From the NCBI GenBank assembly GCA_964036045.1, contig OZ038382.1, positions 151,106,961-151,170,960 of the forward strand: DNA of 64,000 nt. The letters run 5' to 3'. Origin of the DNA: Eutreptiella sp. 'Long Island Sound 2002' (taxonomy: Eukaryota; Euglenozoa; Euglenophyceae; Eutreptiales; Eutreptiaceae). Under the pieces are notes generated by a model. It searched no databases. It saw nothing but the letters and a program-made list of their open reading frames with translations, and was not told the DNA's origin. Each line of letters opens with the position of its first letter. Position 1 is the stretch's first letter. Positions 8,047 to 54,950 of this stretch are shown one piece after another. The position numbers were made by a program, and so were the translations under genes.

Positions 8047-8330
8047 ATTACCCCCAAAAATTGCTTGTTTTCGGCCCCAAAAATGTACGGTTGTTTAGGA
8101 AAATTATCTATATTTTTCTGGTAGAGGCCCAAAATGTGGGGTGTTTGAAGTTAGATACCGGCGGTTTCAGCGGTAGTCTGGCAACTGAATTTTGGGATCT
8201 GGCGACATCGTAAAATCCTATGTGCTACTGTCTTGCTTTCGTACCTCACAACATTTTGTCATGATATTTTTTTGCCTTTTCATGCTCACTGACTGAAGAA
8301 TGTAGGTAAATGATGCCGTTTTCAATTTGT

Positions 8331-8630
8331 ATTGCGAGGCCTCGCAATCAAAATTAAGAATGTAGGTAAATCCGTCGAAGAACCCACATTCTGAATTGGA
8401 ATACGAGGCCTCGCATTCCAAGCTGGGTAATTTGGCTATTCTACCCTGATTTTCATAATGCATATTTAGAAGTACAACTATTTACATTCATAGCTGCAAT
8501 GAACAGCAACCACATATTGGTCCTTTTACACAGGCCAATCGAGTATATTGCGAGGCCTCGCAATCCAAAATGTGGGTAAATAGCTCCATTCTGTTACAAA
8601 AACGATTTTTGGAATGCGAGGCCTCGCAAT
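8331..8630. repeat. Cluster of four GCGAGGCCTCGC palindromes
   Basis: Palindromes of the form ATTGCGAGGCCTCGCAAT lie at 8331-8348, 8400-8417, 8547-8564 and 8613-8630. The phrase GAATGTAGGTAAAT or a variant recurs between them. The core is the same as that of the palindromes spread through the transposon at 26.6-35.3 kb, but the outer bases differ (AT-TGCG rather than TTGCGCG). No gene is recognisable here. Confidence 0.85.
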
Positions 8631-10931: not shown

Positions 10932-13067
10932 TCACAAAGGTAACAATTTGTTGTCGTCCTTCAGGGTCTCGTCTGACTTACGAAGCCAAACTTGCTGGCC
11001 TGTCTCGAAGAGTTTTCCTTGCGTTCTCGACTTAGTTTTGAAATTCAACCAATCTGCTTGACTCTCCACTTTGGCTTGGATCCACTTGGAATCTAAATCC
11101 TTGATCCTTTCAAACCATTGCGAGGCGTGGTAGCACTGCCTTGGATGATACATCACTGGTCCTGGACCCATCTTCTCACGACCAAAAACAAGCTCATTCG
11201 GACTTAATCCAGTGTAATTCTTGGTACGATGGTATCTCCTCAAGACACAGTAAATTGTCTTTAACCAATTGTAGTCTTTTTCAGTCGCCAGGAATTTTCT
11301 CAGAATGTTGATAAGAATTCTTCCAGCGCGTTCAGCAGGGAGGGCTCGATGGTCGTAGACCCGGGCACGAAGATGATGAACTCTTAATAGAGCACACATG
11401 TTCTCCCACCAAGTCCCAATGAACTCCTTCGCACTGTCCGTCAGAATTTCACTGGGAACATCCGAGTTACTCATCCACTGACTTGCAGTCCACTTGGCAG
11501 CCATTTCAGAGGTGAGATGCTTCGTGTTGCAAGGGAGGACCTGGATGTAGCCACTGTGGCGGTCTTGAATCAACAAAACCCCATCGATGGGCTTCCTCGT
11601 GTGGAGGCATTCCTCTGGGATTTGCCCCAACTCGAAGACATCCGCCGTCACCTTGTCGAACAACCTCTCAGGAATTGGTAATCCCTTCAGTAATCCTTCT
11701 GCCTTTTGATTCTTGGGGATGGTCGCCTGACATTGCTTGCATCCTTTGGCAACTCGTTCACAGGCACTCTTGAGGTCCCGTGTGTACACTCTGTGTCGTA
11801 GCTCCTGCTCCAGAACACGAGAATGTGTGTGGGCTGTCACATTCCGATGCCAATGTTTGACATATTGGTCAATCAGACAATCAGGAACACAAATCGGTCC
11901 TTGCCAAAATAACTTGTCGCCTTGGATTCTGAAATCAGACGTCTCTTCAGAGTCGTAAGGCTTGTCCCCTCCCAACTTGTGGTATACAGACCCAAAGAAC
12001 CTGTCCTCATTGTACATCTTCGTCCAATCCACATAGAGGAAGGAAGTTTCCTTGTCCTCTTGTTGTGGAGGGAGCGTGGATTTCGCCTTGGATCTTGTCA
12101 CTGGAAACACATTAAGGAGTGGCAGCGCCGACTCAGAGTCAGAGTTAACTCCTGCAGTCTGATCTGCCTTGGTAATCTCCTTGCATCTGACCAATTCCAC
12201 CTTCATCCGATTTTTAATCGAACATTGAAGACAATGTTTCTTGATCAGTGCTTGTTCCTCCTTATCAAACTCAATCACTTCGGCTTTATCCGTCGCTGTC
12301 CCATGAAAACTGACTTCAGAGTAAGCCTCTGAGGCTGGGTAGGCCCAGCGACTCAGGGCGTCCGCCACTGTATTGTAGCGACCCGGAATGTAAGTCACAT
12401 GGAAGTCAAATCTGCTGAGAGTTTCATGCCAACGGCCTCTTCTCCCAGCTGGTCCACCAGGGGTATCCACATGTTCTGTCCTCCAGCTCTCCAGTGACTT
12501 GTGGTCAGTCAGTACCTCAACGCGATGGCCCAAGATCCAACCTTCGTAACGCCGTAAGGCACAAAGGATTGCGTAGGCTTCTTGTTCCCTTGGACTCCAA
12601 TTTCGCTGTCTTGTTGTAAGCTTGCGAGACCAGAAAGCCAGAGGATGATGGTGACCTTCGTCATCGACTTGTTCGATCGTAGCACCAATTGCGCAAGGAC
12701 TGGCCTCTGTACGAATATAAAAAGGTCTTCCATCCAACCACGGAGTCTTTAATGTAACCACATTCGCCAGTGCTTCCTTGATACCAGTAAAGGCCTCTTC
12801 ACATTCTGGCGTCCACTTGAGCTTGACTTGAGATCCCTTCTTTCCTTCTATTTTGCCAACCTTGAGTAACTCTGTCAATGGACCAGAGAACTTGGCGTAG
12901 AGAGGAAGGAACTCGTGGTAATGATTGCAGCAGCCTAAAAAGGCACGAAGCTGCGTGATGGTGTTAGGCCTTTCCCAGAGCTGTAGGGCAGCCATTTTTC
13001 CTGGGGCTGGTCTCCTTGTCCCATCTTCCAAGACAGAGCCACAAAATTCCACACTCTCAAGGAACAT
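10932..13067 (-). CDS. RT connection, RNase H and integrase
   Basis: This 711-residue segment starts with the end of RT (FLESVEFCGSVLEDG, LRAFLGCCNHYHEFLP). RNase H follows, with RTEASPCAIGATIEQ, SPREQEAYAILCAL, LTDHKSLESW and YNTVADALSRW. Next come the H2C2 zinc-binding region and the integrase core, with D in KVTADVFEL, D in ILTDSAKEF and a degenerate third motif (HRALPAERAGR), then SPNELVFGRE. It ends at TGA 10932-10934, in frame with the chromodomain. Confidence 0.85.
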   Translation of the reverse strand: MFLESVEFCGSVLEDGTRRPAPGKMAALQLWERPNTITQLRAFLGCCNHYHEFLPLYAKFSGPLTELLKVGKIEGKKGSQVKLKWTPECEEAFTGIKEALANVVTLKTPWLDGRPFYIRTEASPCAIGATIEQVDDEGHHHPLAFWSRKLTTRQRNWSPREQEAYAILCALRRYEGWILGHRVEVLTDHKSLESWRTEHVDTPGGPAGRRGRWHETLSRFDFHVTYIPGRYNTVADALSRWAYPASEAYSEVSFHGTATDKAEVIEFDKEEQALIKKHCLQCSIKNRMKVELVRCKEITKADQTAGVNSDSESALPLLNVFPVTRSKAKSTLPPQQEDKETSFLYVDWTKMYNEDRFFGSVYHKLGGDKPYDSEETSDFRIQGDKLFWQGPICVPDCLIDQYVKHWHRNVTAHTHSRVLEQELRHRVYTRDLKSACERVAKGCKQCQATIPKNQKAEGLLKGLPIPERLFDKVTADVFELGQIPEECLHTRKPIDGVLLIQDRHSGYIQVLPCNTKHLTSEMAAKWTASQWMSNSDVPSEILTDSAKEFIGTWWENMCALLRVHHLRARVYDHRALPAERAGRILINILRKFLATEKDYNWLKTIYCVLRRYHRTKNYTGLSPNELVFGREKMGPGPVMYHPRQCYHASQWFERIKDLDSKWIQAKVESQADWLNFKTKSRTQGKLFETGQQVWLRKSDETLKDDNKLLPL

Positions 13068-13073
13068 CTTGCC

Positions 13074-14297
13074 CTACTTGGGTCCACACACGAGCTTCTC
13101 TTGTCGAAGGACTTCAAGAACCTTTCGGACTTGTTCTTCGTGCAACTTCAGGCACTCATCAAAGTTTTTTCCCAACGGCGTGGCAATCCGAAGGTCGTCA
13201 ATGTAGATGCTGCAGAATTCTTGTAAATCCGGAGACTTGTGCTTCTGAAATAAAATAGTCTCCATCATCTTCTGAAACATCGACGGCGCATTCTTCAGAC
13301 CCATCGGCAGTACAGTCCACTGGACAGTGCCACAGGGCGTGCACATTGCGGTCAAATGCCTATCCTCCTTTCGGAGTGGCATTTGGTGAAAGCCATGGCG
13401 CAAATCCAACACAGTAAAGAGCTTACCTTTGGCCCTCGCGGCGATCTCCTTCTCGATTAAAGGAAGGGGATGCGCGTCAGGTACCGTGGCGGCATTCAAG
13501 GCTCTGTAATCCACCACTAGACGCCAAGCATCTATGCTGGATTGGTCAGCAGGTGGGGGTTTTGGCACAGTAAATGGTGCCGAACACCACTCAGAACTCA
13601 TGCAGCTCTCCAACCAACCGAACTCATAGAGATTGCGCTCAATAATTTTTCGCAGGGCATCTGCTTTGGTGCCGTGTAAATAGAATGGACGTCGTTTGTG
13701 CACCTTTGAGCCTTCGATTATGTCAATCTTGGCTTCCCCATTTTCACATAAAATTGGGGGGTTTTTCCACAACTTCCCACTCAGCACGTCATCTTGATAA
13801 TCTTCGAACACTGCGTCCCTTCTTGCAGATGTCTTGTCTCCGTCGACCTGATTCCCACATTTAATCACCGACATTATGTCCACCAATTTGCGAATTGTTG
13901 GTCGTGGTCTCATATTCTTGGCCACTTCATTCCAAACTTCTTCGTCGCATTGTTGGCGGATGCAGCTCACCTGAGCTCGCTCCTCCGTGGGATCCCACCA
14001 ATGAAGGGGGTCCACGAATGTCTTGAAGGGATGGTCGGACGAATTCAGCTGCATTCCTGTCAATTCAGGCGAGATTCTTGGAGATTTGTCATCATTCTTG
14101 CTTGAAATCTTGACATTTTTGGCTTCATTCTTGTCTGATGGGGACGAATTGTAATGGATGGAGGCGTTCTCTTGAGGGACGCCGGTTGTCCTTCCCTCCT
14201 TCCGCGACGATACGTCGGGATTCCGCTCTCGATCGTCTTCATCCACCTCAATTTCGTCGATTCTGGAGGAATTTGAGATGACCTCTTCCGTTATCAT
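13074..14297 (-). CDS. Reverse transcriptase
   Basis: Ty3/gypsy RT with canonical blocks: WRLVVDYRALN, FTVLDLRHGFHQM, VLPMGLKNAPSMFQKMM and the active site IYIDDLRIA. Residue positions run from about 235 (AWRLVVDYR) to about 380 (YIDD). The first 130 residues are acidic and low-complexity. The frame stops at TAG 13074-13076 just before the segment linking RT to RNase H, and the same frame continues at 13067. Confidence 0.9.
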   Translation of the reverse strand: MITEEVISNSSRIDEIEVDEDDRERNPDVSSRKEGRTTGVPQENASIHYNSSPSDKNEAKNVKISSKNDDKSPRISPELTGMQLNSSDHPFKTFVDPLHWWDPTEERAQVSCIRQQCDEEVWNEVAKNMRPRPTIRKLVDIMSVIKCGNQVDGDKTSARRDAVFEDYQDDVLSGKLWKNPPILCENGEAKIDIIEGSKVHKRRPFYLHGTKADALRKIIERNLYEFGWLESCMSSEWCSAPFTVPKPPPADQSSIDAWRLVVDYRALNAATVPDAHPLPLIEKEIAARAKGKLFTVLDLRHGFHQMPLRKEDRHLTAMCTPCGTVQWTVLPMGLKNAPSMFQKMMETILFQKHKSPDLQEFCSIYIDDLRIATPLGKNFDECLKLHEEQVRKVLEVLRQEKLVCGPK

Positions 14298-26240: not shown

Positions 26241-26617
26241 CATGATGTAGCCCACTTGATGGCGTCGGGACATGTCACTGTGCAAATGATGCACAAGACG
26301 CCTTCCTTGTGGAGAATGGCTAAAATGCTGTGAATTTTTGGAAATGCCAAACAAATACAGAGCCAGCATCCGTCCCTGTGTGCACCTTGGTCCGTCCATG
26401 TTGACCGGCATATGAAGATATTTGAAACGAGCAAAACCTGAGCATGAAATTATGGGCAAAATTGTGCACCCTCTGAGTAGTGCTTGAAAACAACCTCTAC
26501 GAGGCAATGCCACTCGGCTTTGCACACCAAATAATGCCTGTAAACAGAGTTTGAGCAAGGAATTTGAACGTTGGGTCTGACTGGGCAGACAGCAAAAGCT
26601 GCAAAAAGGAGCATATA

Positions 26618-26646
26618 CTTAGGCGGCTCAAGTTGCATGATCAAAA
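26618..26646 (+). repeat. Left terminal inverted repeat of the 8.7-kb transposon
   Basis: Perfect 29-bp match to the reverse complement of 35305-35333. Preceded by ATATA (26613-26617). Confidence 0.9.
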
Positions 26647-27507
26647 ACGAAGGAAAAGGTAGGAAAATGACAGGTTTCCAAAGGCATCAAAAAATAATTG
26701 CTTTGATGGATATTTTCAAAACCGTCGCAAACAAGTATGGCGGAATAAATATTTCTATAAGAATGACGTGTCCCATGGGCGAGACAGGGAAAAGTATAGT
26801 TTGGTGACCATTCTTTGCGCGAGGACTCGCGCAAAGACGTTCATTTGTGTCAGATTAATGTACTACAGCACGACGCATTAGGCAGGTTGTCGAAAAATGG
26901 AACCCTGTCGTATTTATACACGTAACTTAGTACCATTATCAGGATTGCGTGATAGAGATGGATCTATTAACGAATAAACTTCAACAATTGTGTACGCAAG
27001 AATCTTGAAAAGTATAAATGTTCCGGAACAAACTGCAGTTTCAAGCGCGAGGCCTCGCGCATGGAACGGCGCGTGAGAAACATTAAAATTTCGGTGATCA
27101 TTGTGCGAGGCCTCGCGCAATGGATCTCATAAGCGGTCATAGAAACCGAAAATGGAATGGATCCACCAACTACACAGCATGTGCATTCCCTTGATGCGGC
27201 GCTGCTGCATGGGCGGCCACACAGACCCCGCCGGCATCTCCAGTTTTTATACTGTGGTCATTGCTGGCTTCACTGCCAAACAGCAATGATAGCGCGCCGC
27301 ATCTGGCTACCGCAATCAGGATTAACTAGTCAAATGTGGGATCACCAGACAGTTACAGTTGACCGAAAATGGTGCATGCGACAAGCGAATCACAGAATAA
27401 TTGGTCGCGCGAAAACTGTGTGACAGGTTGATGTTTGAAATCAAGAAAGTTTTTCAAACAGCGATCTTTACATAGATACAGGTACGCAATTATTCTTCAC
27501 AGCAACA
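26647..27507 (+). other. 5' region of transposon, probable control region of gene A
   Basis: No open frame with motifs. Palindromes lie at 26813-26836 (core GAGGACTC), 27045-27060 and 27101-27120. The last two, and the first in degenerate form, sit at matching places in the relic at 53111-53802. The stretch ends at the ATG at 27508. Confidence 0.5.
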
Positions 27508-27592
27508 ATGCCCCTGCGAAAAGAGGTGGACCTTGAGAAGACAGTGGCCGCAGCATCTGGAGTTTTCCGCGATGTCTGCTCAGAGGAACCGC

Positions 27593-29300
27593 CTTAGGCG
27601 GCTCAAGTTGCATGGTCAAAATCACACCAAATGCACCCAATTTGGACCATGCAAAAAAATAGTTTTTTACAGGCTCTGTTTTTTGAAAAAAGAATATTAG
27701 TCCAAAGAAAGTATCTTTCTTACCATTTGTGCCATTTCGTGCCTTTTTTCGGACAGCTGAAAACAAAAAAAAACTATAAAAAGAATAAATAAATCTTATG
27801 ATTTCAGTGGAAAATGATGTGCTTTTAGCGGAAATTGGCCAAGAAATACATTTTGCGTTCCCCTTGTTTTTTTGGTGGAACATGGTCTGCAGAAAAAATG
27901 ATTGCAACATCATTTTCTGTTCTGCATGTTCATTGCATACCTGGAAAAATGATTTATTGATCGCATTCTATGCGCGAGGCCTCCCGCAATCAAGACCAAG
28001 GATCATTAAAACAGAAGCATGGCGGATTAAATATCAATGCAAAACATATGCAACATGTGGTTCAAGGGCTGCCCCATGCGCGAGGCCTCGCGCATAACTT
28101 ACTGCACCAAAACCCTCACCCGATTCATTTTCCTTTGGAAAGACGGCTTCAGGGTCGAGTGGTCTTAGTACCCACCCCACGGTTTGATTTTTGATTTGCA
28201 CTGCCTGAAGAAAGAGGTATAGGTTGTGACTTTCAAGTTCTGGGACTGCATTGCAGTCCTCATTGCGCGAGGCCTCGCGCAAAAAAAGGCCCAGAAAATA
28301 TATTCTTTGTACCATTGTGATGCGTTCTCATCTGATAGCGCTTGTGCACGACCTTCACTGAAGCAACGAGTACCTAAATTGTCGTTAAGTCATTGAAATT
28401 TACCAGAAGCTCGCCCCCCCCGGAGGCGGAAAAACTCTTTTTGGGCTTGGTCAGCCCCTGCGCCTCGCAGGTTGCTTCCCCCAGGGCACCTTCTTTCTCC
28501 AGGTATCGAACATCATCTTGACAATTGGTGTCGTTTGCACTACATTGCATTTTACTCTCCAAAAAATCAGATTTTTTGGCCCAAACAAACGCTCAAAAAA
28601 GTGCCACGCATGGCAAATTCATATTTTCTTTGCACATTTTACTTTGATCTATAGTCAACAACGGAAGGATCAATTTTTCTTCAGCCAAAGCTACAAGGGG
28701 GGTCCCTGTCCAGCTCAGCGTCATCTGTTGAGTGGACATGCGTCATGTGTTATCAGTGATACTCTTTTTTTTGCTTGAAACTCCCCATAAGTTCCGGCAG
28801 GTGTGCATCATGAGCAATGCTGAAGGATGCACCCTGTGCAACACCTCCAACGTATGTGCTCCTTTTGTTAGGAATGCAACAACATTTGAAATGATTTCTT
28901 GCGTCATCAATTAGATTTGCAAGGCTTGTTTAGAGCACTGAATGTCCGCCCGCGTAAACATATTGTACAATGTGATCAAGTCAAGGGTGCCTGTAATGTC
29001 ACTCCAGTGTAGGCACCTGCTTGATTCCTCAATTGTACCATCATTACCTGACTTTGGAGGGGCAATGGACTGCTCCTTGCGCGAGGCCTCGCGCAAGGAA
29101 CAGTCCATTGCCCCAAAAAATGCATTTTTTGGACCCATCAGGACCAGGAAGTGCCAAAATTCCTTACATAAGAGTTCTTTTGGTGTTCCAAAAACGGCTT
29201 GATTTTTGCAAGCCAAAGAATGTTTCTTTTGATGTTTTTTCAGGCCGTGTATTTTGGGCACTTTCTGTCGTTTTATACCATGCAACTTGAGCCGCTCAAG
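27593..29300. mobile_element. 1.7-kb non-autonomous transposon nested in gene A
   Basis: The ends 27593-27621 and 29271-29300 are inverted repeats related to those of the 8.7-kb element (CTTAGGCGGCTCAAG versus CTTGAGCGGCTCAAG). ACCGC is directly repeated at 27588-27592 and 29301-29305. The homologous gene at 53.8 kb lacks this insertion, so the empty site is visible. The interior has no transposase but carries four copies of the GAGGCCTC palindrome (27971, 28076, 28263, 29078). Confidence 0.88.
29059..29114. repeat. 56-bp near-perfect palindrome
   Basis: Two 28-bp arms without a spacer, differing at a single base pair. The centre is GCGCGAGGCCTCGCGC and the outer arms begin GGGGCAATGGACTG. 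In single-stranded form it would make a long hairpin. Confidence 0.92.
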
Positions 29301-31205
29301 ACCGCCGTACCACACGGCAGAGGAACTGTGGGAAGGGCTAAAACAGGGCGACGAGGGCGCGCGATTGTTGTTTGTTTTTTTTCTGCCTCTGCGCAAAAAT
29401 GAACGGACGCGTTGCAGCGTTGAAAAGGCGATTGCGGCAGAAGGCAAGAGATGGGTTGTGTTTTGATAGAGGAGGACTGGCGCCTTTATTTGCTGATGCG
29501 CCACCGCGCAGTTCCATACCAGGGAATACCAAAGTCAGTTGTTGCGGTAGAGGGAAGTAGGGCGCAGCGTCGCATTTTAGCAAGGTCAGGTCTGGCGCGA
29601 TACAGCGCACCTTCGCTGAAGGAGAAAGCCGCAGTCAGGTTACAGACTACATGGAATAAAATACACCAACAGTGGGTTGTGTTGTGGATGGACAACTGGT
29701 ACAACAAACAGTTTACCACAAATCCTGACAAGAACGACAAAAGCCTGAACGCAACAGCGTTGGCTGTGTTGCTACTGAAGGACGCACCGCACTACTGGCA
29801 TGGTCATCCTAGCCTGGAAGAGCTTGAACGGCGTGTTCCTGCCGTTGCACGCATGCTGGGGAACACCGAGGGAACATTTGCACGTATCCTGCGTAATCTA
29901 GGATTTGCAAGCACGCGACCTATTGTTCGAAACATTAGGGCACCGCTTGACAGTATTCGCGCTGTACCTGCCAAGAGACCACATTGGCGAGCCCTTTGTC
30001 TAAGCCAAGAAAAGGTGAGCGGCAACGTCTCGCTGCTTAATCTATTGCAATTCACTAGGGACTTGGCGCAGCACACTCGACCAGTCGTGCCTGTTTTATG
30101 TGATGAGAACATCCATTACCGCATTTGTAAGATGATGTACGGTGAAAAAACAACGGGTTGGAATGTCCGGCTTTTCTTGCGGTCACACCCTATATTGTAT
30201 GGTTTCTGGCACGCGTACAAGTTTTGCGTTACACAAACATTTCGCTCATTTTGGCCGATCATGACTTTCTTCGGTAAAGGTTTGTTGCGCAGCGGTGACA
30301 CAGTCCCCTGTTTTCCCAAGCTGATCACAATGGAGATAACTGTTGGCGCACTGTTGTTGGGTATGGGCCCCCACATACGGCGCCTTAACAGAAAATCTCA
30401 TTCCCTTGGGCTGGCACATCCTGTAAATCGGCGAGGACGCCTCGGTTACGCTGTGTGTAAGGCCATACAGGTTCTGTTAACACAATACTGTCCAATGTTA
30501 CTATACCTAGGTCACCTCGTTAGACAGTGCAATTGGGCCGGGGAGACGGCCAACACGGGTGTTTTTGCTTCTGAGGGATTGCAGATTGTTATGTGTCTGT
30601 TAGACCATTTGAACATGGGGGACACACTTTTAAAATACGAACGCACTGTTGCAACTGCGCCATTGTGCCACACTGCATGGCACACAGCCATGCCTGAGCA
30701 GGCTTTTGCCGAGGAGTTTTGTGAAAGTCTGCTTTCCAGCCTTGTGACAAAGAAGGGCCAAAACAGAGGTGCAGTAACCATTGAAGATGTTGACGATCTG
30801 TATCATCTCATCACCATCCGCAAAGAAGGTCACAGGGTGAACGTCTGCAAAATCCCCAATTCCTTTGTAAATTCCGTGCGTCAGCGGTTAACTGCTTACT
30901 TGAACGCAGAGCGTGTATATGTGCCTTGGGTTAGGTGGTGTGCCGAACCTACTTGTACAATTCAGGCGCATTGGCCGCGCAGCAGTGTACCTAACTTTCC
31001 ACCGTCTCTTCTAATTTCAAAGGGTTCTAACCACTACAAACAAGTCCTTGTGTCTGTGTTGTTGGTGCTAACGCAGCAGGGGCCGCTTAAGGCTGGTTTT
31101 AAGCGAAAACTGTTGGAGCTGATCCCCCAACGCAGTGTGTTGGAGGAACAGAGAGAGGCCGACACGCTGCGAAACGTTCGAAGAAGATTGGAGAACATGC
31201 AGTGA

Positions 31206-31291
31206 TGCGCGAGGCCTCGCGCAAGCAGCATGAAACAACAGGTTAGTACACCCCCTCTCTTGCGCGAGGCCTCGCCTAAGGTTCACAGTCA
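31206..31291 (+). repeat. Intergenic palindromes, one in a GT-AG segment
   Basis: The first palindrome (31206-31223) starts within the stop region of gene A. The second (31260-31279) lies inside a 47-nt stretch starting GTTAGTACAC and ending GGTTCACAG, which has the form of a mini-intron in the untranslated region. Confidence 0.6.
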
Positions 31292-31771
31292 AAAACAGTG
31301 CCGAGCCCCTTCAATTTTGCATTCTCAACCATATTGTACTCGTATTCGCTAAAAGCGCCTCACATACGCATTATCCACCACGATTTTAACCCTTTTCAAT
31401 GTTATGTTTCCTTCAATACAGGCTTTCTCCTTATCGCAGAATGGCAAGCCCCGCCAAAAAAAAAGCCGAGGAACGAGAAGATACCGACTATGACCCTGGG
31501 ACCTCAGGATCGGAGGCTGAAACACCAAAGAAGGGGCGTAAGAAGAAGGAAACACCAGATCCTGGCTTATCCTTGGGTACTGACATCGAGGACCACCTGA
31601 AGCCGGATGGGAGGCAGGTGGAGGTTGAGCTGGACAACGTGAGAATCGACTAGGAGAAGACAAAGGGGCAGATTAGACGGAAAGGTACGAAGTTACTGCA
31701 GAAGCGTATTGAGTCACTCAAAGCAGCACCGCCAACAAGCCCATTACACGTCGTTCTCTGGGAAGATAATA

Positions 31772-31844
31772 GTATGTTGCCAACCGACTGTTCGCTCTTC
31801 TCGTTGCGCCAGCCCTTGCGCATAGACGTGTCTCATATTTGCAG
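31772..31844 (+). other. Gene B intron 1, 73 nt, decayed palindrome
   Basis: GTATGT ... TTGCAG. The centre TTGCGCCAGCCCTTGCGCAT (31804-31823) is recognisably a mutated version of the palindrome TTGCGCGAGGCCTCGCGCAT. The flanking exons join in frame into ...WEDN-NGDYWC. Confidence 0.7.
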
Positions 31845-32206
31845 ATGGCGATTATTGGTGTGTATCTGGACAGCACAGTGTGGAAGCAATTGCGAAGATT
31901 CGGGAGAAGCGACGCACAGCGTGTCCGGATCTGCAGCAGTGGCATACTACATGCATCGCCGATATTCTGAAACCTACAACGCCGTGGGCCTTCCGTGCAA
32001 AGCTAGCGGGACAAGCACAAGGAAGCGCACAAGACGTTGAGCCAATACCGCTGTATGAGGCCGCACATAACCTCATTCGATGTGTTGAAGATCAGCGGCG
32101 GCGAGGCCTGGCTGACACGTACAGCAATCTCAAGATCGCCATTGTGGATGCTGTGCAGATGAGTGCCCTGGTTCCAACCGCTGAACTGAAGCAGCTTGGT
32201 CAATTC

Positions 32207-32277
32207 GTATGTTCATTAATCGTTGTTTCGATGCTGTTCGTTGCGCGAGGCCTCGCGCATAACGTTGTCACTTTCAG
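32207..32277 (+). other. Gene B intron 2, 71 nt, carries palindrome
   Basis: GTATGTTCATT ... CACTTTCAG with TTGCGCGAGGCCTCGCGCAT at 32241-32260. The exons join in phase 0 (LKQLGQF-DKTYKLW). Confidence 0.8.
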
Positions 32278-32322
32278 GACAAAACGTATAAATTGTGGAA
32301 AGATTTTATGACGTTTGCCTAC

Positions 32323-32908
32323 GTACGTTTTTCATGAAAAATCGCAAAAAAAATGACCGTTTTCCGGTCAAAAATTGAGTTCTTTTGGCCTCAGACAAGC
32401 AGTTGAAGACCCCCCGATCCATTTGGAGGGTGCTGGATACGAAAAAGCAGGTTGTAGAGGCATATATATCACGAAAACACAATTTACAGCATGCGTATGC
32501 ACCAAAATTTGCCATTTTTCATGAAAAAAACGGCCAAAAATGGTTGTTTTTTGGCCAAAAATTGAGTTTTTTTAGCTTAAGATAAGCAGTTGAAGACCCC
32601 CTCTGCCTATTTTGAGGGTGCTGGATGCTAACAAGCAGGTTCTAGGGGCACACAGATCACAAAAACGCAATTTACAGCATGCGTATGCACCAAAATTTGC
32701 CATTTTTCATGGAAAAAAACGGCAAAAAATGGCCGCTTTTTGGTGAAAAATTGTGTTTTTTGGCCTCAGCCAAGCAGTTGAAGACCTCCCCACCCCTATT
32801 TTGAGGGTGCTAGATGCAAAAAAGCATGTTGTATGGGGACACAGATCGCCCAAACACAATTTACAGCATGCTAACTACTTGAATGGGTGTTTTTTTTTTA
32901 TGTTGCAG
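32323..32908 (+). other. Gene B intron 3, 586 nt, with tandem repeats
   Basis: GTACGT ... TGTTGCAG. It holds about three copies of a roughly 185-bp unit starting near 32331, 32513 and 32701. Each has a CATTTTTCATG(A/G)AAAAA start, a GCAGTTGAAGACC phrase and an ACAGCATGCGTATGCACC end. The reading frame after this intron needs one more frame change, so the acceptor is less certain. Confidence 0.6.
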
Positions 32909-33198
32909 GTTTTGGGATTTTTGGACGTCATAAAATCATATGTGCTATGCTGGTCCGGAAGCTGGGAAAGGTCTGCAGAAGTTCCACGACAAAGGGGAGA
33001 AAGTCACGAAGAACGCGGTGAAGAAACTGGACGGGATCCTGTTGCGGGAGTTCTACAAGAAAGTGGCAGAAGTGATGCAGGAAGAAAAAATCACCCTTAA
33101 ATCCTTGCCGAATTCGATTGACGACATCATCCTTGACCAGTGGGTCTCAATGCATCTGGACCACCCGCACAACGGCCAGTACATTCGACCTGATAAAG

Positions 33199-33272
33199 GT
33201 GTGTACCATAGACGCGACGTGGGTTCCGTTTCTGCATTGGTGCGCCGCACTTTCTCCATTTCTATTCTGTAG
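33199..33272 (+). other. Gene B intron 4, 74 nt
   Basis: GTGTGTACC ... TTCTGTAG. Exons join in frame (RPDK-AKDMRTRKEV). A short degenerate inverted sequence GTGCGCCGCAC lies at 33239-33249, possibly an eroded palindrome. Confidence 0.65.
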
Positions 33273-33972
33273 CCAAAGACATGCGGACCCGCAAAGAGGT
33301 TGCTTCACTTGGAAGGCCTGCCCTGAAGGTGACTCTTGGTACATGGGGCTATTGGCGGGAACCTAAAGGCAAAAGTCGCGGTCCATGGCCGGCATGGAAA
33401 TCCATGATTCGTGCACCACTGTGGCAGGTGGCAGAGAAAGGCAAACCCGCCTTCTGAAAATCCTCAACGTCCAAAAACTCATGGGTCAAGAGCCTACCAA
33501 GAGCCGTGTGGTCCCCCAAGCTGCTGGCGTTACTGGTGACTTCAAGACAGTGGAACAGCAGGATCCATTACTGTCAAGTCAAACTATCACAATTAAGGCG
33601 ACGCAAATTGCAACGTTGGCCCACGATCCCCCGAGGCGGTTTATTGAGATTGACAAGAACCTGAGTGTCATCAACGGCGACATATTTGAACATCTTGCTC
33701 CTGAGATGATGTGCCCAGCCTGGCTGTATGAGAAGATGGCGCGTGCCGATACCCTTATCTGCGGCTCTCAAACTGTTGTTGACAACATGTTCAACGTGCT
33801 GGAGACGGAAACAGATAGGCGTCTCAACGATGATTTCAACGCGCCGCGCATGGCTAACATGTTGCGTGTTCCCATCTTCAGTTGGCCAGTCAAACCGAAG
33901 CCTGCAGGGGATCCTACAACGTTTGACGTTCGCTGGTTGCTGATTTCGTCACCGGATAGCTGGTCGAGAAAG

Positions 33973-34039
33973 GTATAATTCCCTCATTAGGTCCGCTCTT
34001 TGCGCGAGGCCTCGCGCAATAACTTCTTCCTCATTGCAG
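33973..34039 (+). other. Gene B intron 5, 67 nt, carries palindrome
   Basis: GTATAATTCC ... TCATTGCAG with the full 20-bp palindrome TTGCGCGAGGCCTCGCGCAA at 34000-34019. Exons join in phase 0 (SPDSWSRK-IPNYLTFG). Confidence 0.85.
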
Positions 34040-34840
34040 ATTCCGAATTATTTGACGTTTGGACCTACTCAAGTAGAGGGGATGGATCCTGTTGAATTTG
34101 GCGGTCACCTTGCGATAACGACGGTTATGTGGTATTTCGACACTCACCTCTTTTACCTGAAGCAGGATAAGAGCTTCAAGCCTGCGTTTGTGTTCATTGA
34201 TCATCAGCCGGATCTGGTGTGCAAGATCGCGTCCATCGAGCCGGATTCTCGCATGTACCTTGTTGGTGTTACCTCCGACAATCTCTCCAATTGGGTCAAC
34301 AGAGTGCAGACTCAATTGAACCACGTCTTGACACAAGGGTCGAAACTGGACGCGTCTGGTGATTGGGACCAGCAGGCCAACTGGTCAAACCGTGGTATTC
34401 CCCTTTGGGTTCGCGATGACAAGGTGGGTTCTGATGCGTTGTCGCTGAAGGAGGAAGAGACTGTCCAGAAAGGTCAAGCTGCAAAAGCACTGGCCCCTGC
34501 AAAGCGGAAGTCTACTGGTGGGGAACCAGCCCCCAAGAAGAAGAAGACTGCCTCCAAGCCTCAGGCAGCGAAGTCGGTTACCGGTGCAGAATCCGACGAG
34601 AGCGATGGGGATGAAGAGGAGGAGTGCGAGGAAGAAGAGGAGGAGGAAGCGCAGGTCTCCCAATGCAAGGAAGTGGCAGCGAAGCCGAGGTCCGAGGAAA
34701 CCGGGGCCCGAGCTCCATTCAAGCAGCCAGCCCGTCAGTCCCAACCAAGAAGCGAGACCGCAAAGCCACCGCCTAAGGGTAAGACGTCCGTTGCTAAGGC
34801 ATTGGGTTCTAAGATGCAAACTGTTCGGAAGAAAAAGTAA

Positions 34841-35304
34841 TTTCCCCGCTTGTTCTGATATATTATGCGCGAGGGCTCGCGCTATGCATTCCTCTTCGAC
34901 GACCTTTATGCTATCACCTCACATTTTTCTCTGTGATGCATTTTATTGCGCTGTTGTGTTGGTGTTTGCGCGAGGCCTCGCGCAAAGAAGGGGTGCCAAA
35001 AAATGCTTCTTGTCGTGCAGCGTGCAACATGGTTTTCGAAAACTGGTTTTCCCAAAAGATTGAAAGCTCATGGGTGTTTTTATTGCAAAGCATAAGTGGT
35101 ATAGGAAACAAAAAGTCGTGGTTTTCCCAAAAAAGGACTTCGTTTTTGTGGAAATAAATCATTTTCTGGGCAGTCGGTTTTGTTGAAAATAAAGGAAAAT
35201 GGGCCAGTTAATTGCTTTTCACAGGATTTTTGGTTCTTGTGTTTTAGGTCCCCCCTAAAAGGACTATTTTTTCGCAGTGCCGTGGAGAGGCAGTTTTGGG
35301 CACA
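34841..35304. other. 3' region of transposon
   Basis: No gene. Palindromes at 34865-34882 (one mismatch in the core) and 34965-34986 (22 bp perfect). Confidence 0.6.
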
Positions 35305-35333
35305 TTTTGATCATGCAACTTGAGCCGCCTAAG
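35305..35333 (-). repeat. Right terminal inverted repeat of the 8.7-kb transposon
   Basis: Perfect 29-bp inverted partner of 26618-26646. Followed by ATATA (35334-35338), the second copy of the target duplication. Confidence 0.9.
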
Positions 35334-35390
35334 ATATAATGCAAGAAGGGATGTGTTGAATGCAGGGTTCTCAGGAGTTGATCACTATGG

Positions 35391-36773
35391 CTAGCAGACA
35401 CTGCAGCACAAGCACATGGGTGGCACAATGCACTGCAGAAGAAATGCGCAACAAAAACCGTGACGACACCTCCCCAGTGAACAAAATCTCAGCAAGGAAT
35501 CTGGAACTTGCGACTTATTGGAGACTACCAAAGCTCCACGAATTGAGCATACAATGCAGGAACGGATGTGTTGGGAGGCAAATGTCCAAGGAATTGATGA
35601 CGATGGCTGCCACACTCTGCAGTAATGTACAGCAAGGTGGGTGGCACTTTGCATTGCAGAAGAAACGAGCAGAAAAAACCTGGCTGGATCACTCTGTGTG
35701 TGTCGTGTGTCGTGGTCGGAGTCTGGATACAAAGGGGCCTCTGATGCATTATCACGACTTGGAATGCTATGAAAAGCAGCCCATGCAGCTGCCTCCGTAA
35801 GAAACACATCTGCAATTGAATCAGAATGGGACATGTACTCCTCGGAGGCTTTGGGATCCCATGCAAACGCAATAAAGCCCGCCTCCCGAACCTTACGGCC
35901 GTCAAAAGCAGCCACAAACCAATGAACGCCCTGCTGCCGACCACTCTCTACGTCATGGGCCTCCGAATTCACCAACATGAAGTGGCGCCGCTGCAACCAA
36001 TTTGACTTCCTCCCATTGGCCTCCATCATTTTGCGGTGCCGCATAATGGCCCGCACAAGGTAGTTCCATGCCAACGGCTCGTCCACAACATTGAGGTACG
36101 CCTGCTCCGCCAAGAAGGTGATCACATGCCTATCCTGCAACCACTCGTTGTCTTGCGAGTAGGACACGGGCGCGCTTGCCGCCACAACGGATCGTTTTTG
36201 TTCTAGCTTTTGGTCACGTTGAGGCCGTCCTGTGTCATGCACCGAAAAGGATGGGGCTTGCAAGCTGTTGGCATACCAAGAATTCTTGCCTTGTAGTCTG
36301 ATGCGTGCCATAGGTCCCGCAGTCCAAATTTCTGCACCTATCCGCCCTTGTTGGCATACTAGGAAGTTTTGCTTTTTCGTCTGATGCTTGCCATAGGTCC
36401 CGGGGTCCCGATTTCTGCACCTATCCGGCCCTGCCGGCATACAAGGAATTATTCTTAGTCTGATGCTTGCCATCCATCCTAGGGTTTCAAATACTGGCAC
36501 AGACAACACAAACCTAGTGTGGGTCGCATCTCCGTCGATGGGACTGTGGCCTCTTCCTCTGCGGGTGTGGCCTTTTGTGGCTTCCGTAGCTTGCGGGGTG
36601 GATGTTGCTGGTATCCCATTCGGCGGGCTTAACGGATCGGTACGATGTCCCACTCCCCTTGTTGACATTGTTCTTGTGCCCAAAAGACATGCCAACATGA
36701 AGCATACTGCCAAAACTGCGGGCAAAAGCAATGCATTGCGTTGAACCGCCTGTACTGCTGCAACAATTTGCAA
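35391..36773 (-). pseudogene. Ulp1/C48-like peptidase segment of the MULE
   Basis: The frame overlaps the end of the transposase frame by 145 bp in another phase, so a frame change near 36650 links them. Residues about 205-320 (WLQDRHVITFLAEQAYLN ... GVHWFVAAFD ... IAFAWDPKAS) resemble the W-L, H-W and Asp parts of Ulp1-type SUMO peptidases, which some MULEs carry. The catalytic Cys block is not recognisable. The middle contains an 83-bp tandem repeat (36268-36480). Confidence 0.45.
36268..36480. repeat. 83-bp tandem repeat, about 2.6 units
   Basis: Units start GGCATAC and contain TCTGATGC(G/T)TGCCATAGGTCCC and TTTCTGCACCTATCC. A single related unit in the opposite orientation is at about 44650-44732 (GGACCTATGGCAAACATCA). 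Confidence 0.8.
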
Positions 36774-50158: not shown

Positions 50159-50763
50159 AGGGGTGCAGCTCCCCTCGCCCCACTTCTGTTGTGCCCACGG
50201 CTCCTTCATTGGGCTTGGATCTTAATGCATCTTTGGGCACTTTAGCCACACATCCTTCTCTCTCTGCCATGGACCTGTTTTGTTTTTCTTTGCTTCCGCC
50301 TTTGGACACTTTCTTTGCTTCCGCCTTTTGCCCATGCAAGTACCTCTGCAAATGCCCTACCAAGTGCCCATGTTGGATGCTATGCCCAGTTTGCAACCAG
50401 CCGTGAACACCTATGGGTATGACATCTTCTCTCCCACTTTCCCATTGAATCCAAGCCTTCCAATGGGACAATTTTGAGACTTCATGTCACCATTTGGGTG
50501 CCAATTGCCCCTATGGGTATCCTTACATACGAAGTTTTGGTGATAAAACTAGCAGCCTGAGTGCTGCTTGGTATGAAATTTTGGTGCTGAAACGGAGAAA
50601 AATGGCGAGTGCCTGAGTTTCTAGCGTATGGAATTGTTGCTCCCCCTACAATGTTAGAAGGTGTGTGCCCTTGTGGTGCATTGTGGGCGAAGTCACTCTT
50701 CATGTTCCATTGTTCCCTCCAAGCTCTCTCCTCTTTGTCTAGGTGGTGTTTCCACCTGTATGG
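50159..50763. other. Non-coding
   Basis: Nothing recognised apart from the end of the transposase relic. Confidence 0.4.
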
Positions 50764-50788
50764 TTAGGTTTAGGGTTAGGGTTAGGGT
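50764..50788 (+). repeat. Short interstitial telomere-like repeat
   Basis: TTAGGTTTAGGGTTAGGGTT continuing to AGGGT: one TTTAGGG unit and two TTAGGG units in a row. Too short to mark a chromosome end. Confidence 0.7.
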
Positions 50789-50969
50789 CAAATTGACAAG
50801 TTTTCTTAAAAAATCAGACTCTGGGGGCAACCGAGGTACTCAAAAGCCTCCACGAAGCGAAAATCGAAACTCGGATGCACCGAATGCATTCCGCCCTCGT
50901 GCTTTCTTTAAAAATTTTCGTTTGGGGTGGGGGCAAATCCGTATGCACTAATTCTGCAGTAGCAGACAG

Positions 50970-51150: not shown

Positions 51151-51770
51151 TGACGCAGAATCAGACCCTTGGTCTGTCCTGCCTCGATGGCTACTCGAAG
51201 AGCCGCCCTGACAGCGTCGAAGAACACGCGCGCACAGCAGAATACAGGCGCACGATCCAGCGCTTGCGTGTCGTGATAAGGACCCTGAATCGAAATGGTA
51301 CGAAGTATTGCGTGAAATATAGCGTGCATTATGCATTATTGTTATTATGCATTATTGTTTTGTATGCACACAGCTCAGATTGTGTCATGGAGCAGCAGGA
51401 CTTGGCAAAAGTCCTAGAACTTTTCGTAGCTGGCACTACGAGTTCAGCACGATGACAGTCTGATGGAGCAGTATGGTACAACGTGTTCTGTAGCTACTGC
51501 CGTGTGCTCTGTCGATGTGCTTTTCTGCTGATGCATCCCCCAGGCAGGATTAAGCGAATCTCTGGCAGCGTAACTCGAGATCAACATCGGCTTCAAAAAT
51601 CATGAACAGCAAGACTTTCGGGTTTTTCCAGTGGTGAAACTGAGGTTCTTTTGCGGCGGCGGTACTTTTAGGGTGTTTGGAAAACCCACAGGTGGAAACC
51701 AAGGACCCGGGAGAAAATTACTTCCATAAGTATCCGTAGACGCAATCCCCGGTACCCTGGACCTGCTTCA
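51151..51770 (+). repeat. 5' LTR, 620 bp
   Basis: TG...CA ends, partner of 52491-53110. Preceded by target duplication ATGC. Confidence 0.92.
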
Positions 51771-52490
51771 GAAAAGTTCTAGTATATTGCCATTTCCGCG
51801 CTCAACTGACTGAAGATCGTCCGGAACAGCACCCTTGGACGCCAGAAGATCGCCGTTGGGTCCATCATGGTGCGCCGACAACTTCAACTGCGACGCCGGT
51901 TGGCGCTGAGAGGACTTTTGGCGGCACAGTGTGACCAGCGTGAAGGTTCGTGGATTTTCGCCTGGAGCAAGGTTCAGCGCGTGAAGTAGGACTGGACCAA
52001 GGCAATGGCGCCCGCCGTGGAGCCAGCCGGGCCTGGTTGACGAAGCCCGCAAACCGATGGGTCCTGGATGCAACCGCACGCGGACATCGACCCTGAAGCC
52101 ACCAGCATCGCCCAGAACCACCAGGAGCTGTCACCGACGTTGCCGACGCATCCTCTTGGCTAAACCTATGTCTGGGATTTTAATTATCAACTTTGGTCTG
52201 CAGCGCGTGCGGACTAGAGTTCAGCCTGTTCGATGATCCAAGTTTTTTTATTGTACTATGTATTGCGCTTCTGTTCATCTGTCGCAATATACATTATGTG
52301 TGTAGCCTCCCACGGCTGACATTCCGCAATGACCACACACCACGCCGCAAGGTAACCGACAGCCTTGAGGAGCGAGAGCGGCACCATGGTCGGTGCTGTG
52401 AGGTGTATACTATGGCAGGTGGGTGTCGGGTCGGCCGGTAGGGAGTTCGGAGCGACCTGCGGACCCTGCAGTTCGTTCCTGAGAGGGGGG

Positions 52491-53110
52491 TGACGCAGAA
52501 TCAGACCCTTGGTCTGTCCTGCCTCGATGGCTACTCGAAGAGCCGCCCTGACAGCGTCGAAGAACACGCGCGCACAGCAGAATACAGGCGCACGCTCCAG
52601 CGCTTGCGTGTCGTGATCAGGACCCTGAATCAAAATTGTACGAAGTATTGCGTGAAATATAGCGTGCATTATGCATTATTGTTATTATGCATTATTGTTT
52701 TGTATGCACACAGCTCAGATTGTGTCATGGAGCAGCAGGACTTGGCAAAAGTCCTAGAACTTTTCGGAGCTGGCACTACGAGTTCAGCACGATGACAGGC
52801 TGATGGAGCAGTATGGTACAACGTGTTCTGTAGCTACTGCCGTGTGCTCTGTCGATGTGCTTTTCTGCTGATGCGTCCCCCAAGCAGGATTAAGCGAAAC
52901 TCTGGCAGCGTAACTCGAGATCAACATCGGCTTCAAAAATCATGAACAGCAGGACTTTCGGGTTTTTGCAGTGGTGAAACTGAGGTTCTTTTGCGGCGGC
53001 GGTACTTTTAGGGTGTTCCGAAAACCCACAGGTGGAAACCAAGGACCCGGGAGAAAATTACTTCCATAAGTATCCGTAGACGCAATCCCCGGTACCCTGG
53101 ACCTGCTTCA
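52491..53110 (+). repeat. 3' LTR, 620 bp
   Basis: Preceded by the polypurine tract at 52481-52490 and followed by ATGC. Confidence 0.92.
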
Positions 53111-54950
53111 ATGCGCGACGCCTCGCACAAAGGCGAACATTTGTGTTAGATTAATGTATCACGACGCACGGCATGAGGCAAGTTGTGAGAAATGAGAAAC
53201 ATTAAGGCTGTATACACGTAACTTTGTATCATGATCAGAATGGAGTGGTAGAAATGGATACATTCATAAATAAATTTTCATTTTACTTCACTTGGTAATC
53301 TGTAAATGTCCAATTGTCATTGAAGAAACTGTAGTTTCATGCGCGAGGCCTCGCGCATGGAATGGCGCGTTAAGAGCAATAAATTTTCAGCGATGTATGC
53401 GCGAGGCCTCGCGCAATGGAGGTCATGAACACCCATAGAAACAAAAAATGAGTAGATCCAGCAGCTACACAGCATGTACATTCCTTTTGATGCGGGGCGG
53501 CTGCATGGACGGCCCTACAGGTCGCGCCGGCGTCTTCAGTTTTCATGCTGTGGTCACCGCTGACTTCACTGCGCAACAGCGATGGTAGTGCGCCGCAACT
53601 GGCTACTAAACGCAACATTAACTAGAGAAATGTGGGAGTACCTGACAGTTACATGAAACAGAAAATGGTGCATGCGACCATGAAATAGGTGAAAAACTGG
53701 TCGCGCAAAAATTGTGTGACAGGTTGATGATTGAACAAGAAAACTTTTTCCAACGGCTATATGTAGGAAGATACATTTACGCAAGTTGATCTCACGGTGA
53801 CAATGCCTCTGCGCAAGGTGTCGGGCCTCGAGAAAGCAGTAGCAGCGGCATCTCGAGTATTCCGCGATGTTTGCTCAGAGGACCCGCTGTATCACACGGC
53901 AGACTAATTGTGGGAAGGGCTAAAACAAAGGGTCGAGGGCGCGCGATGGCTGTTTATTTTTTTTGCGTCCGCGCAGAAATGATAGGACGCATTGCAGCGT
54001 TGAAAAAGCAATCGCGTCCGAGGGCAAGAGACGGGTTGGTGTTCTGATAGAGGAGGGCTGGCGCCTTTATTTGTTGATGCGCCACCGCGCATTTCCGTTT
54101 CCGGGAAAACCAAAGTCTGCTGTTGCGATAGAGGGGAGTACGGCACAACGACGCATTTTAGCGAGGTTAGGTCTAGCGCGATACAACACACCGTCAGTGA
54201 AGGAGTGGGCTGCAGTCAGGTTGCAAACAACGTGGGACAAAATATACCAGCAGTGGGTTGTGTTGTGCATGGACAACTGGTACAACAAACTATTTACCAC
54301 AGAACCCGACAAGAACGACAAGAGCCTTAACGCAACAATGCTAGCTGTCTTGCTCACGCCAGAGGCACCTCGCTACCGGCATGGTCATGCTAACCTCGAG
54401 GAACTTAAACGGCGTGTCCCTATTGTTGCACGCATGCTAGGTAAAACTGAAGGAACCTTTGTCTGCTTCCTGCCTGACGTAGGAATTGCAAGCACGCGGC
54501 CTGTTGTGCGAAACATCAGGGCACCGCTTGATAGCATTCGTGAGGTGTCTGCCAAGAGACCGCATAGGCGGCCTCTTTGCCTAAGCAAAGAAAACGTAAG
54601 CAGCAACGTTTCGCTGCTTAATCTACAGCAGTTCTCTAGGGAGTTGGCCCATCACACCCGGCCAGTTGTGCCTGTTTTATGTGACGACAACATGCATTAC
54701 CGCATTTGTAAAATGATGTATGGTGAAAAAACAACGGACTCGAATGTCCGCCTATTTTTGCGGTCTCATCCTATATTATATAGCTTCTGGCACGCATACA
54801 AATTTTGTGTTACACAATTACTCGCTCGCTCTGGCCAATTGTGACATTTTCTCGTCAAAGGTTGTTACGCAGCATTGAAACTCTCACCTGTTTTCCAAAG
54901 CTCATCACCATGGAGATATCCATTGGCGCACTACTGTTTGGCAAGTAAGA
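53111..54950 (+). pseudogene. Truncated relative of the 8.7-kb transposon with gene A relic
   Basis: 53111-53802 parallels 26815-27507, including palindromes at 53112 (degenerate), 53339-53358 and 53398-53415. Gene A starts at 53803 (MPLRKVSGLEKAVAAAS). It has an early TAA after HTAD, a two-base frame change near 53960, then stays open 53963-54844 (matching about half of gene A, including VPVLCDDNMHYRICKMMYG). Similarity ends near 54945 (IGALLFGK), where unrelated DNA begins. Unlike copy 1, it has no 1.7-kb insertion, so it shows the empty site. Confidence 0.85.

Follow-up and report, generated by a model that had tools for sequence, protein, structure and literature searches.

The question raised by a window of 64,000 nucleotides from Eutreptiella sp. 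'Long Island Sound 2002' (contig OZ038382.1, positions 151,106,961 to 151,170,960; the window is the whole stretch analyzed, and coordinates below refer to it) is to which kind of mobile system its 8.7-kb element with two genes, A and B, belongs, and why this element carries one palindrome many times over. Our analysis indicates that it probably represents an unassigned lineage of DNA transposons, with A as the transposase, likely of the DDE type, and with B, which would possess a ParB-like N-terminal domain, as the protein binding the palindromes. The palindrome was absent from the initial annotation, which was made from the nucleotide letters.

The ends of the element are 29-bp terminal inverted repeats (TIRs), perfect as first described (29 of 29 positions complementary), with ATATA on both sides (Table 1). 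The annotated span and both genes stand as well, but the 8.7-kb element is really a unit of about 6.4 kb plus two insertions: the 6378 bp of another copy (L165), 1713 bp and 625 bp add up to 8716 bp, the usual unit length of the family being approximately 6.3-6.4 kb. The first insertion is a nested element, interrupting the 5' coding part of gene A, without any match to genes A or B; its own 5-bp duplication, ACCGC, was correctly noted, whereas its ends are not quite the same, the right one having two mismatches within the outermost 20 bp. Four sites similar to the 20-bp end (up to three mismatches) are present in the window, versus none in 100 shuffles. Both the element and the nested element have an empty-site counterpart in the window, as the outer flanks, joined with one ATATA kept, align across the junction to a tandem unit (35474-35680, 71%), and a second, truncated copy of the family (copy 2; 76-81% identical, three palindromes), uninterrupted at this site, runs straight through the insertion point of the nested element. 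By its inverted ends, constant-length duplication and empty sites, the element is classified as a cut-and-paste DNA transposon (TIR order).

In the scanned assembly (2,280,300,865 bases in 2205 contigs), the 20-bp end is found without mismatch 2,665 times (1352 + 1313), and its reversed control not at all. Twenty facing end pairs were taken from the first approximately 100 places listed, all in contig 1, with one further 1.7-kb pair omitted; 17 of them have an exact 5-bp duplication. Two of these pairs, L176 and L177, are a single insertion in an inverted duplicate (193 and 195 of 195 flanking positions identical), which leaves 16 of 19 separate insertions. Duplications of the same length were found in three of four copies chosen for an open gene A, and in all five gene-A matches for which both ends were located, so that the initial proposal of a 5-bp target-site duplication as a property of the family is borne out. 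The genes were not found routinely outside the ends, a possibility that the initial annotation had raised: all six end pairs of 5.9-6.4 kb (L162-L167) contain A and B in constant order, as do the four copies with open A, each with both ends. For 10 further gene-A matches, spread down the list, end positions were predicted and only those stretches were read; the left end was at the predicted spot in 10/10 (at most one mismatch in 22) and the right end in 5/10. Two copies, L183 and L185, are nearly identical (dS, the synonymous divergence, is 0.015 in A and 0.011 in B), and the family therefore probably moved recently.

Several of the end pairs have an unusual arrangement. L168 (8447 bp) and L170 (4938 bp) are mirror-image pairs of elements with reverse-complementary flanks, L179 is simply devoid of a duplication, and the insertion seen in L176 and L177 is present twice, inverted, about 9 kb apart. 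L168, L170 and L176/L177 are either inverted duplications or an assembly artefact. In an 8.2-kb pair, L169, a 1.7-kb non-autonomous element has approximately 6.4 kb of other DNA inside and an intact 5-bp duplication outside.

The window copy is broken in both genes, while a fully open copy exists elsewhere (L185; A of 661 aa, B of 832 aa in five exons). Gene A was rightly described as a single exon, but its coding sequence starts near 27507 rather than at 29451, where the long open reading frame has its first ATG; in the window it is split by the nested element and has, in addition, a frame break near 29450. The same start was found by a pattern search in four of seven other copies, and in the four open copies gene A is a single exon of 661 codons beginning with MPLRK. 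When the genome was searched with protein A, 8077 loose candidates came up. The 75 best of them were scored and are all 92-100% identical; 51 of these 75 (the window's own included) are without an internal stop. Gene B had been annotated with six exons; it has five, separated by four GT-AG introns of 67-74 nt, the remaining "intron" (32323-32947) being a 625-bp insertion missing from 6/6 other copies. Among 10 full copies, L185 is the only one with B free of stops and frame breaks as spliced. The last 38 bp of the insertion match 8190-8228 at 31 of 38 positions, and the insertion thus probably belongs to another repeat family of the genome; a second gene B, once considered at 8190-8228 from a 38-bp similarity to "exon 4", was rejected, as this match belongs to the end of the insertion and not to gene B.

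The ratio of nonsynonymous to synonymous divergence (dN/dS) between the window copy and copy 2 is 0.17 in gene A (256 codons), with 31, 22 and 83 differences at the first, second and third codon positions. For L185 and the most diverged copy, L164, the ratio is 0.18 in A and 0.41 in B, and in seven other pairs of copies it is 0.22-0.59 in A and 0.45-0.92 in B, the closest pairs having few differences. Judged by these ratios, selection against amino-acid change is clear for A and weaker for B.

The element has 14 sites of the 16-bp palindrome GCGCGAGGCCTCGCGC and copy 2 has three (up to three mismatches); the rest of the window has none, with 0.12 occurrences expected. Alignment of the sites extended it to an 18-bp core, TGCGCGAGGCCTCGCGCA, flanked by A/T on both sides in 17/17 sites, with a weaker TC..GA farther out. 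In the genome, 10,135 sites match the 18-bp palindrome exactly and none matches the reversed control. None of the 14 sites in the element overlaps coding sequence; for the 10 sites outside the nested element this has a probability of 3e-5, given that 64% is coding. Three sites are located in introns 1, 2 and 4 of gene B, while a scoring matrix detected no palindrome in intron 3 (33199-33272). Introns 1 and 2 (31772-31844 and 32207-32277) are alike outside the palindrome too (P 0.0015, uncorrected). Derivation of the short introns from one another was considered and found weak, only this one of three pairs being alike.

The sites within introns and beside gene ends could point to a function in RNA, for example as hairpins aiding the splicing of short introns or the formation of transcript ends; this appears very improbable, as palindromes also precede A and lie within the nested element, where no match to the genes is seen, and the 16-18-bp core is perfectly symmetric and loop-free, which would be more in keeping with a dimeric protein on DNA than with an RNA hairpin.

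Within the family, the palindrome is nearly as conserved as the ends. Identity among six full copies is 95.9% in palindromes (nine sites), 97.7% in ends, 92.1% in gene A, 90.8% in gene B and 85.3-88.7% in other noncoding sequence, a comparison somewhat biased in favor of the palindromes, since the sites were those recognized in one reference copy. In 11 non-autonomous sequences (the window's and 10 others; L180, a derivative by plain internal deletion, was excluded as a different type), identity is 97.3% in palindromes, 97.9% in ends and 93.9% in the rest, with a bias of the same kind. CpG dinucleotides are retained far better within palindromes than outside them, both in the six full copies (149/160 versus 274/373 in noncoding sequence) and in the 11 non-autonomous ones (167/176 versus 253/318). 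Because the latter show no match to A or B, this pattern would reflect either selection on source copies or protection of the sites by a bound protein; it favors occupied sites but cannot separate occupancy from selection.

These data also bear on another explanation, by which the palindromes serve as an epigenetic tag: bound by B or by a host protein, their CpGs would be shielded from methylation and mutation, and the element would thereby escape silencing. We consider it a tentative possibility. The CpG retention, extending to copies without A or B, agrees with it, and a ParB-like domain joined to a DNA methyltransferase has been reported from a brown-algal Sola1 transposon (PMC12477816). 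However, selection on source copies would yield the same CpG pattern, and Pfam scans found no methyltransferase domain in A or B.

Palindrome clusters lacking the exact 20-bp end led to a sister family, represented by two loci, L206 and L207. Both contain A and B inside ends of the form CTTAGCCCACGCAAACTGCACCC on both sides, with spans of 6856 and 6851 bp. Sister protein A is 45% identical to that of the first family in L206 and 48% in L207, where a C-terminal stretch has 34%; sister protein B is 29.5-43.5% identical, and no nucleotide match exceeds 60 bp. The flanking duplications, GTTGA and ACTTA, are not independent evidence, as the search required a 5-bp match; the ends agree between both loci. 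The identical 18-bp palindrome is present in eight copies in L206 and seven in L207. The eight of L206 occupy the compartments that are used in the first family: three precede A, two separate A from B, and intron 2, the last intron and the region after B have one each. Of the seven of L207, two precede A, two are located between the genes, one is in the last intron and two follow B, with none in intron 2. The flanks of the sister sites are mostly AG..CT, with some TG..CT, versus A/T..A/T in the first family.

Thus, the two families agree in 14 of 20 bases of the ends, both beginning with CTTAG, and in 18 of 18 bases of the palindrome: as far as these two families tell, the palindrome is kept more strictly than the end. 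This speaks for, though it does not prove, a conserved protein other than the end-binder as the reader of the palindrome; ends and palindromes would probably be bound by different activities. The conserved set of identical palindromes suggests that a DNA-binding system of its own travels with the element. By a different explanation, the palindromes would bind the transposition machinery, A or A with B, so as to unite the ends, and B would be an accessory protein similar to TnpA of En/Spm and unrelated to ParB. We consider this a possible alternative, though not a strong one. Two proteins and a repeated internal motif are the known plan of En/Spm, with its TnpA and 12-bp motif, and the 1.7-kb non-autonomous family shares with the full element only the ends and palindromes and no longer stretch. 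On the other hand, the En/Spm motif is subterminal, whereas here the sites are distributed along the whole element, introns included, and it is the ends that differ between the families, the palindrome core being unchanged.

The assignment of A as a transposase, probably of the DDE type, derives from a few features of its sequence. Two hydrophobic stretches end in Asp (VLWMDNWY and VPVLCDENIH), and a later NWxGE supplies Glu; the three residues, D158, D295 and E442 in the numbering of the 661-aa protein, belong to the 25 acidic residues that do not differ between the families, and together with the hydrophobic stretches they fit a DDE/RNase H core without proving one. In PDB sequence searches with A, RNase H chains came first twice, at expectation values (E) of 0.91 and 0.5, that is, at chance level, and a third search gave nothing. 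Five Pfam scans (E up to 1 in one and up to 10 in four) found no transposase family in A, the sister family included. A likeness of A to DUF6589 proteins was considered and dropped, being unsupported by Pfam, with an empty literature search.

If the element were a diverged representative of a known superfamily such as Transib or hAT5, the duplication length of 5 bp would fit; we regard this placement as quite unlikely. Transib has 5-bp duplications and CAC-type ends, and hAT ends begin with CAG or TAG; both families described here start with CTTAG, so that the difference in termini to which the initial annotation had pointed for groups such as Transib holds. The scans gave neither a hAT match for A up to E 10 nor a Transib one. 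For hAT5, 5-bp duplications are stated in PMC12730594, and the element is thus alike with hAT5 and Transib in the duplication and unlike them in the terminal bases and in the lack of a profile match of gene A.

For gene B, the stretch containing GPLHVVLWEDNNGDYWCVSGQHSVEAVAKI aligns with the ParB N-domain, whose order is helix, strand, strand, GxxR-like turn and helix. In comparisons with a profile built from 12 phage ParB-type proteins and one further sequence, two of 3000 shuffles scored as high as this register in the open copy L185, and with a profile of both families one of 200 column shuffles did. We take the N-terminus of B as a likely, though unproven, ParB-like domain. B appears to be a likelier candidate for the palindrome-binder than A.

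Several observations weigh against the interpretation as a whole. The 5-bp duplication is absent from three of the 20 end pairs (L168, L170 and L179) and from L182, and five of 10 right ends were not at the predicted place, perhaps owing to internal insertions or deletions. Pfam, NCBIfam and PHROGs name neither A nor B, which also leaves the element of unassigned type, as it was first called; the weak profile matches seen for the two proteins reach E 0.06 at best, and none passes a curated cut-off where the library provides one. AlphaFold2 models of A (from a two-sequence alignment) and of B exon 2 were unusable, with predicted confidence (pLDDT, predicted local distance difference test) of 34 and 49. 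Selection on gene B is weak between L185 and L165 (dN/dS 0.92). As to the ParB register, one method had seven of 2000 shuffles with higher scores in the first tests, and the other had 10 of 100 shuffles and four of 146 unrelated window frames; 19 of 3000 shuffles scored as high as the B segment of the sister family alone; HHalign gave the two-family profile a probability of 3.9%; Pfam yielded no ParB match for B; and the ParB fold was picked after the motif had been seen. The favorable bias in palindrome conservation, mentioned above, belongs here as well.

Under the interpretation we prefer, A would cut and join the element ends, and B would be its sequence-specific DNA-binding partner, recognizing the palindrome as a dimer. 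Through the palindromes B could load on the element DNA along its whole length, and, once loaded, either help to pair ends lying 6 kb apart or keep the element open and active. A more far-reaching version, in which the element belongs to a eukaryotic transposon superfamily with its own ParB/parS-like system, B spreading, pairing the ends and/or preventing silencing, and one site code serving two diverged families, seems rather unlikely to us. In either case, the palindrome array poses a testable question: why is the same 18-bp site kept in fixed noncoding places, among them introns, while the proteins and the ends change?

Outside the genome, the palindrome occurs singly in bacteria, with one site in each of 80 loci among the matches listed (80 of 118), and also in one viral contig; these occurrences are read as chance. 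In the window, a 300-bp segment (8331-8628) has four copies of a shorter relative, ATTGCGAGGCCTCGCAAT and variants, with one CG fewer per arm; no flanking TIR with a duplication was found around this cluster, which possibly represents the site of a third family. An element resembling those with long terminal repeats (51151-53110) is inserted into copy 2 and has two 620-bp repeats, 97.9% identical, with TG..CA and with ATGC on both sides. Other features of the window are a retrotransposon coding region with reverse transcriptase, RNase H and integrase on the minus strand (10932-14297), which we take to be Ty3-like, and a short interstitial run of a TTAGGG/TTTAGGG-like telomere repeat (approximately 50760-50790).

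Table 1. Features of the transposon and of its relatives in the window (window coordinates).
Feature	Coordinates	Strand	Remarks
Whole element	26618..35333	+	8716 bp: unit of ~6.38 kb, nested element and 625-bp insertion
Target-site duplication ATATA, left	26613..26617	.	
Left TIR, 29 bp	26618..26646	+	
Palindrome	26817..26832	.	1 mismatch
Palindrome	27045..27060	.	exact
Palindrome	27103..27118	.	1 mismatch
Gene A, 5' coding part before nested element	27507..27592	+	MPLRKEV...
Duplication ACCGC around nested element	27588..27592; 29301-29305		left copy; second copy
Nested non-autonomous element, 1708 bp	27593..29300	+	4 palindromes; multi-copy family in the genome
Palindromes of nested element	27972..27987; 28078; 28265; 29079		first with 1 mismatch, others exact
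Gene A after nested element	29306..31205	+	long open frame 29451-31205, 584 aa
Palindrome directly after gene A stop	31207..31222	.	exact
Palindrome between A and B	31262..31277	.	2 mismatches
Gene B exon 1	31441..31771	+	in-frame stop in window copy
Gene B introns	31772-31844; 32207-32277; 33199-33272; 33973-34039		
Palindrome, gene B intron 1	31806..31821	.	3 mismatches
Gene B exon 2	31845..32206	+	with exon 1 encodes the putative ParB-like stretch; SGQHS motif
Palindrome, gene B intron 2	32243..32258	.	exact
Gene B exon 3, first part	32278..32322	+	
625-bp insertion in gene B	32323..32947	.	three ~188-bp repeats; edges uncertain by a few bases
Gene B exon 3, second part	32948..33198	+	
Gene B exon 4	33273..33972	+	one frame break in window copy
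Palindrome, last gene B intron	34002..34017	.	exact
Gene B exon 5	34040..34840	+	acidic, lysine-rich tail
Palindrome downstream of gene B	34867..34882	.	1 mismatch
Palindrome downstream of gene B	34968..34983	.	exact
Right TIR, 29 bp	35305..35333	-	29/29 complementary to left
Target-site duplication ATATA, right	35334..35338	.	
Copy 2, truncated	53112..54941	+	5' region and first half of gene A

No relatives outside the genome were found in viral contigs, which were searched with protein A, with two alignments of it and with part of B, or in prokaryotic genome contigs, and the 20-bp end used as a pattern had no matches; in phages there was nothing for A and two matches for B at E 4 or worse, and in plasmids three matches for B at E 2 or worse. 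As these searches covered no eukaryotic collection, the element may already be described, for example in Repbase; in the open-access literature, mostly titles and abstracts, no description of these ends, of the palindrome or of such an element was found.

Among known systems, En/Spm (CACTA) transposons encode TnpD and TnpA and have short inverted ends, a subterminal 12-bp motif bound by TnpA, and non-autonomous derivatives. Our element is similar to them in having two proteins, short inverted ends, a repeated internal motif and non-autonomous derivatives, and differs in its motif, an 18-bp palindrome spread through introns and flanks, and in the lack of a Pfam match. It also differs in the 5-bp duplication and CTTAG ends, compared to 3 bp and CAC given for EnSpm in PMC12730594. 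The duplication lengths listed in the same source for KDZ (Kyakuja-Dileera-Zisupton, 7-8 bp), Plavaka (2-3 bp) and IS3EU (6 bp) do not agree with that of the element either, and none of these groups was indicated by a Pfam transposase match.

The element appears to represent an unassigned lineage of eukaryotic DNA transposons, with thousands of end copies, near-identical and open copies and two diverged families in one genome. The bacterial ParABS system likewise has a 16-bp palindrome, parS, and B shows a weak register of the ParB N-domain; the element differs in that no ParA was recognized (neither gene having a Pfam match) and in the sequence of the palindrome, which is not that of parS. 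A parallel in eukaryotes is Sola1-1_Ec32, a 21.5-kb transposon of a brown alga with a ParB-like domain joined to a DNA methyltransferase; similar ParB-like proteins are said to be known from transposons of green and red algae, and the available part of the source mentions no site array (PMC12477816). Here no methyltransferase was found, the partner gene matches no known transposase, and a palindrome array is present; what both would have in common is that a DNA transposon of a eukaryote is equipped with a ParB-like protein. If B does bind the palindrome, the element would be a case of a ParB-like system used by a nuclear transposon, possibly to escape silencing.

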